Below are positions 29,086 to 37,090 of a stretch of DNA of 64,000 bases, piece by piece. The first letter of the stretch is position 1. Every line of letters starts with the position of its first letter. Under the pieces are notes generated by a model. The model was not told the origin of the DNA, did not search any database, and saw nothing but the letters and a program-made list of their open reading frames with translations. The position numbers and the translations under genes are program-made. The DNA lies in NCBI RefSeq assembly GCF_004331465.1, contig NZ_SJKB01000010.1:62001-126000 (forward strand). The letters are read 5' to 3'. Origin of the DNA: Kribbella pittospori. Its GTDB lineage: Bacteria > Actinomycetota > Actinomycetes > Propionibacteriales > Kribbellaceae.

Positions 29086-30480
29086 ATGAAGATGTGGCGA
29101 TCTGTCGGGGTGGCGGGGACTGCTGTCGTGCTGGTGCTGGGGTTGCTCCCGGCCGGAGCGCAGGCGGCCGACGAGCCTACGCCTGAGGTGGCGGCAACGA
29201 CTCCTGCGGTCACGCCGCCGCCTGAAGCATTACCTGAGACGCCTCCGCCGGTTGAGAAGCCGGTTGAGACTCCGCCGCCGAGTGAGCCGCCGTCGTCGGC
29301 TGCCTTGGAGGAGCCGACGCCTACGCCGACTCCCAGGCCCGCCGCGGCGCCGGAGTGGTCGATCACGCTGAACCAGCCGGCTGCCTCGTGGGAGGACCGG
29401 CCCGTGGTGTTCACCGGCGCGATCAGCAAGCCGATCACCGGTTCCTACATCACACTGTGGCAGAGCGTCTCGGGCTCTTGGGTCCTGCGTGGCGCGACCC
29501 GGACCACGACCGGCGGGGTCTACAAGTTCAGCTTCACCTCGCCGTACCCAGGGACCTGGGCGTTCCGCACCATCATCGGGGCGAAGGACACCACGTCGCT
29601 GGCGATCTCGGCGGCCCGGTCCGTGCCGATCCAGGACCGCAAGATCGTGGTCAACACACCAGCCCCTTGGTACGCGACGCTGACCGGCGCGTCCGTCAGC
29701 GGGCGGACTTGGCCGGCCGAGCCGCACAAGGAACTCGGGGTGCAGCAGTACGTCGGTGGCAAGTGGCTCGCACTGGGCATCACCAAGACGGACGGGTGGG
29801 GCAAATACCTCTTCCGCGTGCCGGACAACGTGCCGGCGACCAGGACCGTGCGGGTGCTGAGCCGTTGGGTCAGCCAGCCCGCGATGGAGTACTCCGCCTC
29901 GGTCAAGATCGTGGTCAAGGCGCACATGAACCCGAAGGTCTACACAGTCACCGCTGCCTCGGTGCCGAACACCTATCGGGCCGGCTGTCCGGTCCGGCCG
30001 TCGTCGTTGCGGCTGCTTCAGCTGAACTACTGGGGCTTCGACCACACGGTGCACCGCGGTGAGCTGATCGTCCGGGATGCCGCCGTACAGAAGATGATCA
30101 CGGCCTGGACGGCGACGTTCGCGGCCAAGTTCCCGATCCGGCAGATGCGGCGGGTGGACCGGTTCGGCGGCAGCGACATCAAGTCGATGGCGGCCGACAA
30201 CACCTCAGCCTTCAACTGCCGCCGCGTCACCGGCAACCCGTACGCGCTGTCGCCGCACTCCTACGGCTGGGCGATCGACATCAACACCGTAGAGAACCCT
30301 TATCTAGCGGCCAACAACGTCTGGTACCCGTCCAACGGGACCGCGTACCGCAACCGCTCGGTGTCACGCCCAGGCATGCTCTACGCCACCAGCACCCCAA
30401 CCAAGTCCCTGATCGCCCAGGGCTACTTCTGGGGCGCCCGCTGGACCAAACCCGACTACCAACACTTCGAACCCAAGTGA
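29086..30480 (+). CDS. Secreted M15-family D-alanyl/L-alanyl peptidase with proline-rich linker
   Basis: A 464-residue secreted protein. A signal peptide (residues 1-27, positively charged KMW.. then hydrophobic VAGTAVVLVLGLLPAG, cleavage after AQA) is followed by a proline/threonine-rich linker (about 30-85), repeated beta-sandwich-like segments, and a C-terminal M15 domain. The zinc ligands are His391 and Asp398 (SPHSYGWAID) with a final His in YQHFE. These enzymes cut peptidoglycan stem peptides. GGGGAGGGG is at 29069-29077; the ATG at 29086 has the best spacing, with GTG 29080 an alternative. Confidence 0.87.
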   Translation: MKMWRSVGVAGTAVVLVLGLLPAGAQAADEPTPEVAATTPAVTPPPEALPETPPPVEKPVETPPPSEPPSSAALEEPTPTPTPRPAAAPEWSITLNQPAASWEDRPVVFTGAISKPITGSYITLWQSVSGSWVLRGATRTTTGGVYKFSFTSPYPGTWAFRTIIGAKDTTSLAISAARSVPIQDRKIVVNTPAPWYATLTGASVSGRTWPAEPHKELGVQQYVGGKWLALGITKTDGWGKYLFRVPDNVPATRTVRVLSRWVSQPAMEYSASVKIVVKAHMNPKVYTVTAASVPNTYRAGCPVRPSSLRLLQLNYWGFDHTVHRGELIVRDAAVQKMITAWTATFAAKFPIRQMRRVDRFGGSDIKSMAADNTSAFNCRRVTGNPYALSPHSYGWAIDINTVENPYLAANNVWYPSNGTAYRNRSVSRPGMLYATSTPTKSLIAQGYFWGARWTKPDYQHFEPK

Positions 30481-31610
30481 GAACTCTGACTGGTGCCGCG
30501 GCACTAGGCGCTCCCGCGCTGCGAGCTGCTGCCGCGGTGCGGGCTGGTGCTGAGGTGCTGGTTCGTGCTGCGGTGCTCGGTGGTGCGGGGGTGCTGGCTG
30601 GTCGTGCGGTGCGGGCTGGTGCTGTGGTGGTAGCTGGTCGTGCGGTGTTCGGTGGTGCCGGGGTGCTGGCTGGTCGTGCGGTGTTCGGTGGTGCCGGGGT
30701 GCTGGCTGGTCGTGCGGTGCGGGCTGGTGCTGTGGTGGTAGCTGCTCGTGCGGTGTTCGGTGGTGCGGGGGTGCTGGCTGGTCGTGGGGTGCGGGCTGGT
30801 GCTGCGGTGCTGGCTGGTCGTGCGGTGTTCGGTGGTGCTGTGGTGTTTGCTGTGGTGCTGGTGGGTTGCAGTGCTGACCCGCCGCAGCCGCAGGCTGCTG
30901 GGACGCCGCCTGCCAGCACTCCCGCACCTACGCCTCCGCCAACGGGCGGTGGCACGGTGCCGGTGCCTACCAACACCCTGAGCACGGTCAAGCCAACGGA
31001 TGCCGCCGTACCGCCGGAGCTACCGGAGGAGGCGACCGCACCCCCACCCGCCTCGGCCGGTCCGCTCAGCGCTCGCAACCTCCCGGCGCCTACCAAGCTC
31101 GGGGCCGGCTGGAAGACGTACGTCGACCCTGGTGGTTCCGAGGCTGGGTTCCTCGGCAACAAGACCTGGACCCGCCAGCGCGAGCCACACCAGGCCGCCT
31201 TCGAGGCACTCCCGGCCGGCTGTGCCGGTCAACTGCCTTCTAGTTCGCTCCCGGTCCCGCAGTACGCCCTCCAAGCGACATACCGCACCGCCGCCGGCCT
31301 GCCCGCCACCGCTCTGCTCCTACGCTTCAACGGGGCCCAGGAGGCTGCCGCCTACTACAACGGCTACCACTCCCGCATGACCGCCTGCGGCACCGGCGGC
31401 GACCTCTCCGTCACCCAACTCTGGACCGAGGACACCGCCACAGCAGCCACCCGCCAGTACGCCGGCGCAGAGTCCTACACCGACATCTCAGTAGTCCAAG
31501 GCCGCACAGTCGCCCTCCTGGCCGCCACCGCCACCACCCCACCCCCCTCCCAATCCACCTGGTCCCGCACCGCCACCCCCGCCCTCAAATCCACAATCGA
31601 CACCCCCTAA
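30477..31610 (+). CDS. Lipoprotein with repeat-expanded N-terminal region
   Basis: A 377-residue protein that begins at GTG 30477, overlapping the peptidase stop. It ends its hydrophobic part in a lipobox (LVGC, Cys131). The proposed mature part starts with a Pro/Thr-rich linker (about 132-190), then a compact domain with two Cys (GCAG, ACGTG). A normal lipoprotein signal is 18-30 residues; here about 96 residues of near-identical 12-residue units precede the box. A later GTG inside the repeats (for example V111 region) could be the real start. Function of the mature domain is not recognised. Confidence 0.68.
   Translation: MRTLTGAAALGAPALRAAAAVRAGAEVLVRAAVLGGAGVLAGRAVRAGAVVVAGRAVFGGAGVLAGRAVFGGAGVLAGRAVRAGAVVVAARAVFGGAGVLAGRGVRAGAAVLAGRAVFGGAVVFAVVLVGCSADPPQPQAAGTPPASTPAPTPPPTGGGTVPVPTNTLSTVKPTDAAVPPELPEEATAPPPASAGPLSARNLPAPTKLGAGWKTYVDPGGSEAGFLGNKTWTRQREPHQAAFEALPAGCAGQLPSSSLPVPQYALQATYRTAAGLPATALLLRFNGAQEAAAYYNGYHSRMTACGTGGDLSVTQLWTEDTATAATRQYAGAESYTDISVVQGRTVALLAATATTPPPSQSTWSRTATPALKSTIDTP
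30555..30842 (+). repeat. Eight 36-bp tandem repeats inside the lipoprotein gene
   Basis: Units encode VLAGRAVFGGAG or VLAGRAVRAGAV variants, residues 27-122; a half unit (VRAGAE) precedes them from 30537. The units alternate F-G-G and R-A-G versions. Substitutions are few, so the array is probably young or variable in length. The minus strand is Pro/Ala/Thr-rich in one frame, which explains spurious long ORFs there. Confidence 0.9.
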
Positions 31611-34817: not shown

Positions 34818-35540
34818 ATGACTGACGTGGAGGGGCTGCAGCCGGTCGACGAGGACTGGCACAAGGCGTTGGCGGTGATCGCTCACCCGGACGACATGGA
34901 GTTCGGGTCGGCGGCTGCTGTGGCGCGATGGACGGCGCAGGGGAAGGAGGTCGTGTACTGCCTCCTGACGTCCGGTGAGGCGGGGATCGACGGGATCCCG
35001 CCGGAGAAGTCCGGACCGTTGCGCGAGGCCGAACAACTCGAGTCGTCGCGGATCGTCGGCGTCTCGCAGGTCGAGTTCCTCGGCCAGCCGGACGGCACGA
35101 TCGAGTACGGCGTCCCGCTCCGCCGTGTGATCGCCGAGGTGATCCGGCGGCACCAGCCGGAGATCGTGATCACGAACAACTTCCACGACACCTGGGGCGG
35201 CGACGGCAACCTCAACCAGGCCGACCACATCAACACCGGCCGCGCCACGATCGACGCCGTCCGCGACGCGGCCAACCGGTGGATCTTCCCCGACGTGGGT
35301 GAGCGCTGGGGCGGCGTACGGCAGGTCTGGGTCGCGGGCTCACCCAACGCCAAGCACGCCGTCGACACCACCGACACCTTCGACATCGGCGTCCAGTCCC
35401 TGAACGCCCACAAGGCCTACATCGAAGGCCTGAACTGGCCCCACTTCGACCCCACCGAATTCCTGGAAGGCGTCTCCCGCCCCGCCGGCACCCACCTAGG
35501 CACCCGCTACGCCACCCGCTTCGAAGTAGTCACCCCGTAG
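34818..35540 (+). CDS. PIG-L/LmbE-family deacetylase
   Basis: A 240-residue zinc-dependent N-deacetylase. The zinc motif AHPDDMEFG is at residues 22-30 (His-Pro-Asp-Asp) and a later ADHINTGRATIDAVRDAANR holds the third ligand His. The family deacetylates N-acetylglucosamine derivatives, for example mycothiol (MshB) or glycolipids. No mycothiol gene is beside it, so the substrate is unclear. ATG 34818 fits the family start. Confidence 0.87.
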   Translation: MTDVEGLQPVDEDWHKALAVIAHPDDMEFGSAAAVARWTAQGKEVVYCLLTSGEAGIDGIPPEKSGPLREAEQLESSRIVGVSQVEFLGQPDGTIEYGVPLRRVIAEVIRRHQPEIVITNNFHDTWGGDGNLNQADHINTGRATIDAVRDAANRWIFPDVGERWGGVRQVWVAGSPNAKHAVDTTDTFDIGVQSLNAHKAYIEGLNWPHFDPTEFLEGVSRPAGTHLGTRYATRFEVVTP

Positions 35541-35572: not shown

Positions 35573-35629
35573 CGAGTCGTGGATTCAAGCTCACCTGGTT
35601 CGACTGGTGGCGCAGATTTCCACGACTCG
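35573..35629. repeat. Left REPIN-like inverted doublet beside the DUF559 gene
   Basis: CGAGTCGTGGA (35573-35583) and TCCACGACTCG (35619-35629) are perfect inverse complements with a 35-base loop. The right part ATTTCCACGACTCGG (35616-35630) is identical to the one at 36621-36635 on the other side of the gene. Span (57 bp) and layout match the right flank. Confidence 0.75.
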
Positions 35630-35649
35630 GGGGCCGCCGCGCGTCAGGC

Positions 35650-36522
35650 TCAGGCCGCGAGGTGGTGGCGGTGGCCTCGGCTGCGGAGGTCCTGCGAGAT
35701 GCGAGCGACGACTGTGGCTGGAGCATGCAGGAGATCGTGGGCTGTAATGACGCGGACCAGCCAGCCTTCGCGTTCGAGGTTCTCGCGGCGGCGGATGTCT
35801 CGCCGCCACTGTCCGATGTCGAGCAGGTGATGGCGGCCGTCGTACTCGATCGCGATTCTCAGCTCCGGGTAGCACAGATCGGGTTTCGCCAGCCAGCCAC
35901 CATCGGAGTCGCGGACGATCAGTCCGATGTCTGGCTCGGGTAGCCCGGCCAGCACAAGCAGGAGGCGCAGCCGAGACTCCATCGGAGAGTCGACGCCTTG
36001 CCGGACGAGGGCGGCAGCCGTCCGCGCCAGCCGGACACCGCGTACGCCGTTCGCTGCGGTGACAGTGTCGATCAGGTGCTGAGGGTCTACGCCTGTACGG
36101 CGGACCAGGGCGTCTCCGGCCGTGACAAGCTCAGTCAGATCGCAGTACCGAGCGAGATCGAGGAACGTTCGTGCCGGTGGTGTCAGCGGCAGACCGAGTA
36201 CGTTCACCGCCTGGATCTCGCGGACCTCGTGCACCCGGAGACCGCGCACGCGTGGCACGACACTGTGTGGATCGCGCCGGACGCTGACCTGCAACTCGTC
36301 GCAGGTCAGCTCAATCGCGCTCCAAAGCTCCAGCGCTGTGTGGTGACTGACCACTCCGCCAGGCACGAGTAGGAGAGCTGCCTCGGCGCGCACCCGCGAC
36401 GTCAGAGCGATGTCGGCTCGAACGTACGCGGACCCCACCACGCGTCGAAAGCGCGCGCTTCGCAGGATCCCCGGCGACATTCCGGCCCTCAGCGCCTGCG
36501 CCGCCGTGAAGACCCGTTCCAC
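35650..36522 (-). CDS. DUF559 endonuclease-domain protein with AbiEi-type N-terminus
   Basis: A 290-residue protein starting at GTG 36522 (VFTAAQALRAGMSPGILRS). The first half resembles the AbiEi antitoxin-type winged helix/linker (VVSHHTALELWSA). The C-terminal DUF559 domain, related to Vsr/PD-(D/E)XK nucleases, shows PELRIAIEYDGRHHLLDIGQWRRDIRRRENLEREGW, here split: Asp/Glu in IAIEYDG, His pair, then the RRD and REN helices. It may cut or bind DNA. Two REPIN-like inverted doublets flank it symmetrically, as in mobile or selfish modules. Confidence 0.83.
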   Translation of the reverse strand: MERVFTAAQALRAGMSPGILRSARFRRVVGSAYVRADIALTSRVRAEAALLLVPGGVVSHHTALELWSAIELTCDELQVSVRRDPHSVVPRVRGLRVHEVREIQAVNVLGLPLTPPARTFLDLARYCDLTELVTAGDALVRRTGVDPQHLIDTVTAANGVRGVRLARTAAALVRQGVDSPMESRLRLLLVLAGLPEPDIGLIVRDSDGGWLAKPDLCYPELRIAIEYDGRHHLLDIGQWRRDIRRRENLEREGWLVRVITAHDLLHAPATVVARISQDLRSRGHRHHLAA

Positions 36523-36577
36523 CCATCCACTATCCCGGACCTCCGCCGACCGCGAACTCGGTCGTCCACAGGCGTCG

Positions 36578-36635
36578 CCGAGTCGTGATCCGCGTCCTCG
36601 AAACCTGTAGAAGAGGGCAAATTTCCACGACTCGG
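36578..36635. repeat. Right REPIN-like inverted doublet beside the DUF559 gene
   Basis: CCGAGTCGTG (36578-36587) and CACGACTCGG (36626-36635) pair perfectly around 38 bases. The right end, with the 15-base ATTTCCACGACTCGG shared with the left flank, is at 36621-36635. It sits 56 bases upstream of the DUF559 start. Confidence 0.75.
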
Positions 36636-36679
36636 CGGAGGCAGGGCGTCCCCGGCGCGTCGGCGAGGTGCCCGGGAGG

Positions 36680-37090
36680 TCAGGTCTTGGGGAGGTCCAG
36701 GTGGATGGAGAGGTGGGGCGGGGTGGGCTTGGGGTTGCGGGGTTCGCGGTCGCCGGAGAGGTCTGGGCCGGGCGGGTTGCCGGGGCCGGACCAGGAGCGG
36801 ACGAGGGTGCGGCCTTTGCGGGAGAGGCGGTGGAGGTCGATCTGCTCGACCTGGTTCGCCGGGATGCCTAGCTGAGCCAGGCTGCGGTTGGCCATCGCGC
36901 AGGCAGAGTCGTGCTTGCGCGGCGAGAGCTTGTGCTGGAGGACGATCGCGATCGTGCCGTCGGGCAGGTCCTCGACGCGGCACAAGCGCATGCCGGCGTC
37001 CAGGGCGTACGACCCGAGCGCCAGGTCGATGTAGTCGGCGTTGGACAGTCGATTGGTCTTTGCGCGAGCAACCACTTCATACCTGGCCAT
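36680..37090 (-). CDS. Hypothetical protein, 136 aa
   Basis: A small cytoplasmic-looking protein I do not recognise. It starts MARYEVVARAKTNRLSNADYIDLALGSYALDAG and carries a middle with KLSPRKHDSACAMANRSL and a Pro-rich C-terminus (GPGNPPGPDLSGD, PKPTPPHLS). A short conserved core (about residues 1-90) is likely the folded part. The start ATG at 37090 has no obvious ribosome site. It follows the DUF6817-type gene on the same strand with an 84-base gap. It has no TM segment or signal. Confidence 0.6.
   Translation of the reverse strand: MARYEVVARAKTNRLSNADYIDLALGSYALDAGMRLCRVEDLPDGTIAIVLQHKLSPRKHDSACAMANRSLAQLGIPANQVEQIDLHRLSRKGRTLVRSWSGPGNPPGPDLSGDREPRNPKPTPPHLSIHLDLPKT

Follow-up and report, generated by a model that had tools for sequence, protein, structure and literature searches.

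We show that a gene predicted to encode a fusion of an AbiEi-like region with a Vsr-type nuclease domain stands, in Kribbella pittospori, between two inverted repeat doublets, that doublets of this kind are dispersed in the genus at numbers that follow the gene, and that related genes of other Actinomycetes commonly stand between repeats of their own. There is good support for the pairing of the gene with the repeats. By analogy with known dispersed repeats, and with a probability that we put at roughly 0.6, the two would together form a small selfish system, in which a single nuclease gene goes with a family of short repeats dispersed in the genome. The locus was first noticed in a window of 64,000 nucleotides (the whole stretch of DNA that was analysed), for which the initial annotation proposed a REPIN-like repeat-spreading module with an enzyme other than a RAYT; the dispersal of the doublets, their tracking of the gene and the bracketed paralogues all support that proposal, whereas nothing observed speaks for the genome-marking module that it named as an alternative.

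Results

The gene, of the DUF559/AbiEi type, is flanked in the window by paired inverted repeats that both contain ATTTCCACGACTCGG (Table 1), just as initially described. The arms had been given as 10-11 bp, which holds for the left doublet, with perfect arms of 11 bp around a centre of 35 bases; the perfect arms of the right one are longer, at 12 bp, around a centre of 38 bases, and the described range of centres, 35-38 bases, stands. Both are inverted doublets of CGAGTCGTGG. The dispersed unit is the doublet and not the common 15-mer, which is ruled out in this role because its 14-base core, TTTCCACGACTCGG, has two exact copies in the genome: beyond those of the window, no further copy was found in its 9.49 Mb. 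Sequences simulated with a first-order Markov model of the window's dinucleotide make-up (10-bp arms, spacers of 30-45) held two like-armed inverted repeats within 1.2 kb in 0 of 40 cases, but this in-window statistic is weak because the script compared exact 10-mers that are offset in the window pair and left that pair itself unflagged as well. The weight of the evidence is comparative and does not lie in the in-window statistic.

Table 1. Features of the locus and its surroundings, with positions counted from the first letter of the window.
Feature	Position	Strand	Remarks
ORF	30477-31610		Long low-complexity tandem coding repeat of GRAVFGGAGVLA-like units
PIG-L deacetylase gene	34818-35540	+	Left neighbour of the insertion locus; adjoins the 136-aa ORF in element-less relatives
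Left inverted doublet	35573-35629	.	Arms CGAGTCGTGGA (35573-35583) and TCCACGACTCG (35619-35629); 46-bp spacing class
15-mer ATTTCCACGACTCGG, copy 1	35616-35630	+	Common to both doublets
AbiEi-Vsr fusion gene (DUF559/MTES_1575), 290 aa	35650-36522	-	Between the two doublets
CCTGTGGACGAC, DnaA-box-like element (CCTGTGGAyaAC)	36561-36572	-	Between gene start and right doublet
Right inverted doublet	36576-36637	.	Arms CGCCGAGTCGTG (36576-36587) and CACGACTCGGCG (36626-36637)
15-mer ATTTCCACGACTCGG, copy 2	36621-36635	+	Common to both doublets
136-aa ORF	36680-37090	-	Right neighbour of the insertion locus; without Pfam match

Structure comparison divides the model of the 290-residue protein (pLDDT 94.7) into an AbiEi-like part (residues 1-174) and a nuclease part of the Vsr/EDxHD fold (residues 177-284), and on this model the gene lineage encodes a putative fusion of an AbiEi-type DNA-binding region with such a nuclease. 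The model matches the AbiEi antitoxin 6y8q (Z 10.6, 164 residues, rmsd 5.9), the homing endonuclease I-Bth0305I (3r3p; Z 12.9, 96 residues, rmsd 2.4) and Vsr (Z 11.0), and there is a profile match to an EDxHD homing endonuclease (E 0.005). Pfam assigns MTES_1575 (1.3e-6) and DUF559 (8e-4), both slightly below the curated cut-offs, and finds these domains in 60 and 55, respectively, of 62 family members. Residues S179, E182, R186, P195, E226, G229, H232 and D242 are invariant across the 62 sequences, and the strongly conserved E182, D215, H232 and D242 are candidate catalytic residues. Pairwise dN/dS values of 0.18-0.40 among orthologues show that the gene is under purifying selection. No AbiEii (DUF1814) toxin gene lies beside it, its neighbours being the PIG-L gene and the 136-aa ORF, and no DDE, DEDD, serine or tyrosine transposase is found inside the element, where the enclosed gene is the AbiEi-Vsr fusion. 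A reading as a defence system was rejected, PADLOC giving just an AbiEi match (1.3e-10) and one weak match to a restriction enzyme.

Searched in 38 Kribbella genomes, the strict doublet pattern GAGTCGTGG-N22..52-CCACGACTC is found in 20, with a maximum of 16 copies per genome; a simple composition estimate puts the chance expectation at about 0.01 per genome, and the pattern read backwards has 0 matches in the same 38 genomes. The window's own genome holds three strict doublets and no more. The arrangement of the arms is regular: in 60 loci, 43 of 51 same-strand neighbours lie exactly 33 bp apart, and inverted neighbours (n = 66) are spaced, with one exception, by 36/37 bp (37 pairs) or 46-48 bp (28 pairs), which gives the unit layout A -33- B -36 or 46/47- inverted B. 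Within the arm there is a second conserved patch, GG. The letters of the Kribbella spacers are variable and their positions show no hairpin-type co-variation, which disfavours a long hairpin as the recognised form and favours duplex sites; going by these letters, the Kribbella arms would look like phased duplex binding sites.

Where the doublets stand bears on two other explanations. Among 63 solo doublets, a crude gene finder left 18 unclassifiable and placed 22 in convergent gaps, 19 in tandem gaps, 3 in divergent gaps and one in an overlap. Bidirectional terminators, or structural intergenic palindromes unconnected to the gene, would suit the convergent gaps, and the two window doublets do fold better as DNA than shuffled sequences (z -3.6 and -2.9). 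We find this barely credible, given that no T-tract is seen by eye at the doublets, that their sequences are family-specific and their numbers associated with the gene, and that they are precisely absent from near relatives. A regulon, with the protein as repressor and the dispersed doublets as its operators, is an explanation that draws on the AbiEi antitoxins, which repress through paired inverted repeats (PMC7319586), and on the doublet upstream of the gene itself. It is nevertheless highly improbable: just 3 of the 45 classified doublets lie in divergent gaps, most being convergent or tandem, a doublet is also found downstream of the gene, the sites are seldom orthologous between species, and the repeat arrays of Nocardioides keep a fixed 51-bp spacing.

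The dispersed doublets follow the presence of the gene across the genus, as a genome-wide repeat family of the kind initially suspected should. Genomes with an intact gene carry a mean of 10.0 doublets, those with gene remnants 7.25 and those without the gene 1.0 (38 genomes, phylogeny ignored), and the counts of the first and last groups differ with a Mann-Whitney value of 2e-6, again ignoring phylogeny. No doublet is present in 18 of the 25 gene-less genomes, and seven have 1-7 each, which could be relics. These seven, with repeats and without the gene, would also be expected if the repeats owed their spread to a different enzyme, either a RAYT or an IS transposase working in trans, while the AbiEi-Vsr gene hitchhiked or settled on them. 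We regard this as improbable, since repeats with gene-specific sequences accompany the gene at dozens of loci, in many cases on either side of it, and two families of one genus differ in their distribution over genomes.

The eight full-length orthologues all have repeats on both sides, and in most of them the ends are mirror images, with mirrored triple arms. One locus is common to the orthologues of genomes G010, G013, G016, G017, G019, G022 and G029; other loci are occupied in the window's genome (G000), with a decayed copy in G020, and in G033, so that the gene has at least three chromosomal positions. Empty sites, which the initial annotation had suggested looking for in related strains, were found. 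At the common locus, G005 lacks the 1.1-kb element and has 3 bp instead, with flanks 94-96% identical to those of G017; the locus is also empty in G002, G011, G014 and G058, and what remains in G007 is the repeats on the left and the final bases of the gene. One solo doublet of G017 is likewise absent from G005 (flank identity 92-96%). These empty sites are either losses or sites that were never filled. The window's locus holds, in relatives, a full element, a decayed element, a solo doublet or nothing; G009, a 95%-identical genome, was ruled out as a clean empty site, its intergenic gap being unrelated DNA. A CTAG repeat occurs at one locus, where it may be just two stop codons, and no clear target-site duplication was seen.

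A homing-type drive, in which solo repeats or empty alleles are cut by the nuclease and then receive a copy of the gene locus through repair, would make the repeats landing pads and not the replicating unit. It fits a nuclease domain that is nearest to I-Bth0305I and Vsr, a single-copy gene found at more than one site, and a locus that is found with the full gene, with a decayed gene, with a solo doublet or empty. Even so, we consider it unlikely: the majority of the repeats stand alone, at sites that are not orthologous, which implies more frequent spread of the repeats than of the gene, and repeats remain on both sides of the gene, whereas insertion splits a homing site. From these comparative patterns, and by analogy, we infer instead that the nuclease mobilises the repeats.

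The association extends to other Actinomycetes. Among 75 related genes, 41 have an exact repeat of 15 bp or more in common between their two flanks, as do 5 of 653 control positions (0.8%) from those contigs. Within flanks, a repeat distance of 51 or 52 bp is seen in 73 of 160 cases and in 18 of 1346 control flanks (1.3%). The repeat sequence differs by gene family, and many of the repeats form perfect palindromes that have a fixed core; palindromes 51/52 bp apart are the common layout outside Kribbella. A DnaA-box-like element of the class TGTGGAYRM lies upstream of 51 of 78 related genes and of 0.6% of controls. The proposed link to other DUF559 genes is thereby borne out, paralogues in the same genome included, and with doublets dispersed and paralogues bracketed, the outcome that the initial annotation had named as refuting, a motif absent elsewhere or not linked to such genes, did not arise.

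Three more families, GCGCAATTGCGC, CGTTCACGTGAACG and ACACCTCCTGTCGA, were checked for dispersal, and all are dispersed. The first has 27, 5 and 2 copies in three Nocardioides genomes, in which the gene is flanked by that core or part of it, and 0-1 in ten others. The second has 11, 9, 6, 4 and 1 copies in Serinicoccus genomes and 0-1 in seven others; its copies at non-orthologous sites are alike over roughly 104-112 bp only, a mobile unit of about 110 bp. The third brackets a second DUF559 paralogue of the window's genome (L011, G000:C68:126271-126969), has 16 copies there and is present in 21 of 38 genus genomes, with a distribution over the genus different from that of the window-doublet family.

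Some further loci are recorded here as observations in their own right. In Serinicoccus, one syntenic locus of two species (L103 and L124) carries divergent gene alleles with different repeats; the swap is not clean, the second motif having 14 copies in the swapped genome and also 10, 6, 4 and 2 elsewhere. Paralogues L007, L008, L012 and L013 of the window's genome are likewise bracketed, each by its own repeats, with a TGTGGAYAAC-like element close by on one or the other strand, and the upstream flank of L013 holds tandem 83-bp units with TTCCGCGGCGTACGTGGTCGA.

Discussion

Our data suggest how such a system might work. The repeat unit would comprise two or three binding sites in fixed phase, to which the N-terminal AbiEi region would bind pairwise, on double-stranded DNA, recognising its cognate sites, and the C-terminal Vsr/EDxHD-fold domain would then nick or cut at bound units. 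Repair or replication could next copy a single unit, giving rise to dispersed doublets, or alternatively the DNA enclosed by two units, by which the gene would move. Changes in the gene and in its repeats would go together, so that each gene family comes to have its own repeat sequence. Binding by this protein, cutting and copying are steps that we infer, and the same holds for any part that the DnaA-box-like element plays. The two 23-bp inverted repeats to which AbiEi binds are separated by 3 bp, and for Rv2827c the repeats of a pair by 13 bp (PMC7319586), which is the same dimorphism of one turn, or ten bases, as that between 36 and 46/47 bp in Kribbella; the known binding of 23-bp inverted repeats by AbiEi proteins thus matches the geometry of the doublets.

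Several known systems share parts of this arrangement. AbiEi-type antitoxins, of the AbiE type IV toxin-antitoxin system, have in common with the model the fold of its N-terminal 174 residues, but here there is no adjacent AbiEii partner, a nuclease domain is fused and the sites are dispersed over the genome. EDxHD/Vsr-fold nucleases such as I-Bth0305I and Vsr share the fold of the C-terminal domain and its conserved E182, D215, H232 and D242, yet the gene described here does not lie in an intron and is flanked by its own dispersed repeats. The CGTC-tagged REPs are likewise dispersed palindromes, reported as a repeat family without a dedicated transposase (PMC3733652); they are not known to have an AbiEi-Vsr partner.

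The closest parallel is with REP/REPIN-RAYT systems, which likewise combine short palindromic doublets scattered through intergenic DNA with a single-copy gene that has these repeats at its sides, and which are inherited mostly vertically, with occasional moves. The enzyme, however, is an AbiEi-Vsr fusion here and a Y1 (HuH) tyrosine transposase there, no conserved GTAG foot is seen by eye in the 60 Kribbella loci, and the Kribbella sites behave as putative phased duplex binding sites. The system is thus an analogue of REPIN-RAYT by pattern, and membership fails on the enzyme and the GTAG foot; what is new rests on the enzyme and the site architecture.

Bacteria have few mobile repeats; the REPINs, which are among them, are linked to a single enzyme class, the RAYTs. 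Our literature search, which covered mostly open-access papers and few preprints, returned nothing relevant that links DUF559/AbiEi-Vsr genes to palindromic repeats or mobile elements. The genes described here probably represent an undescribed class, widespread in Actinomycetes, in which an AbiEi-Vsr nuclease and not a transposase spreads its own paired sites, whose sequence is specific to the lineage. If this is true, the existence of a second enzyme class, unrelated to the first and accompanied by many repeat families that are specific to their genes, would mean that this life-style arose more than once, and the common annotation 'AbiEi/DUF559 domain' would gain a function. The families would also offer many natural pairs of nuclease and site in which to study the evolution of DNA specificity, and would reveal a hitherto undescribed route by which small selfish DNA can spread in the absence of any known transposase.
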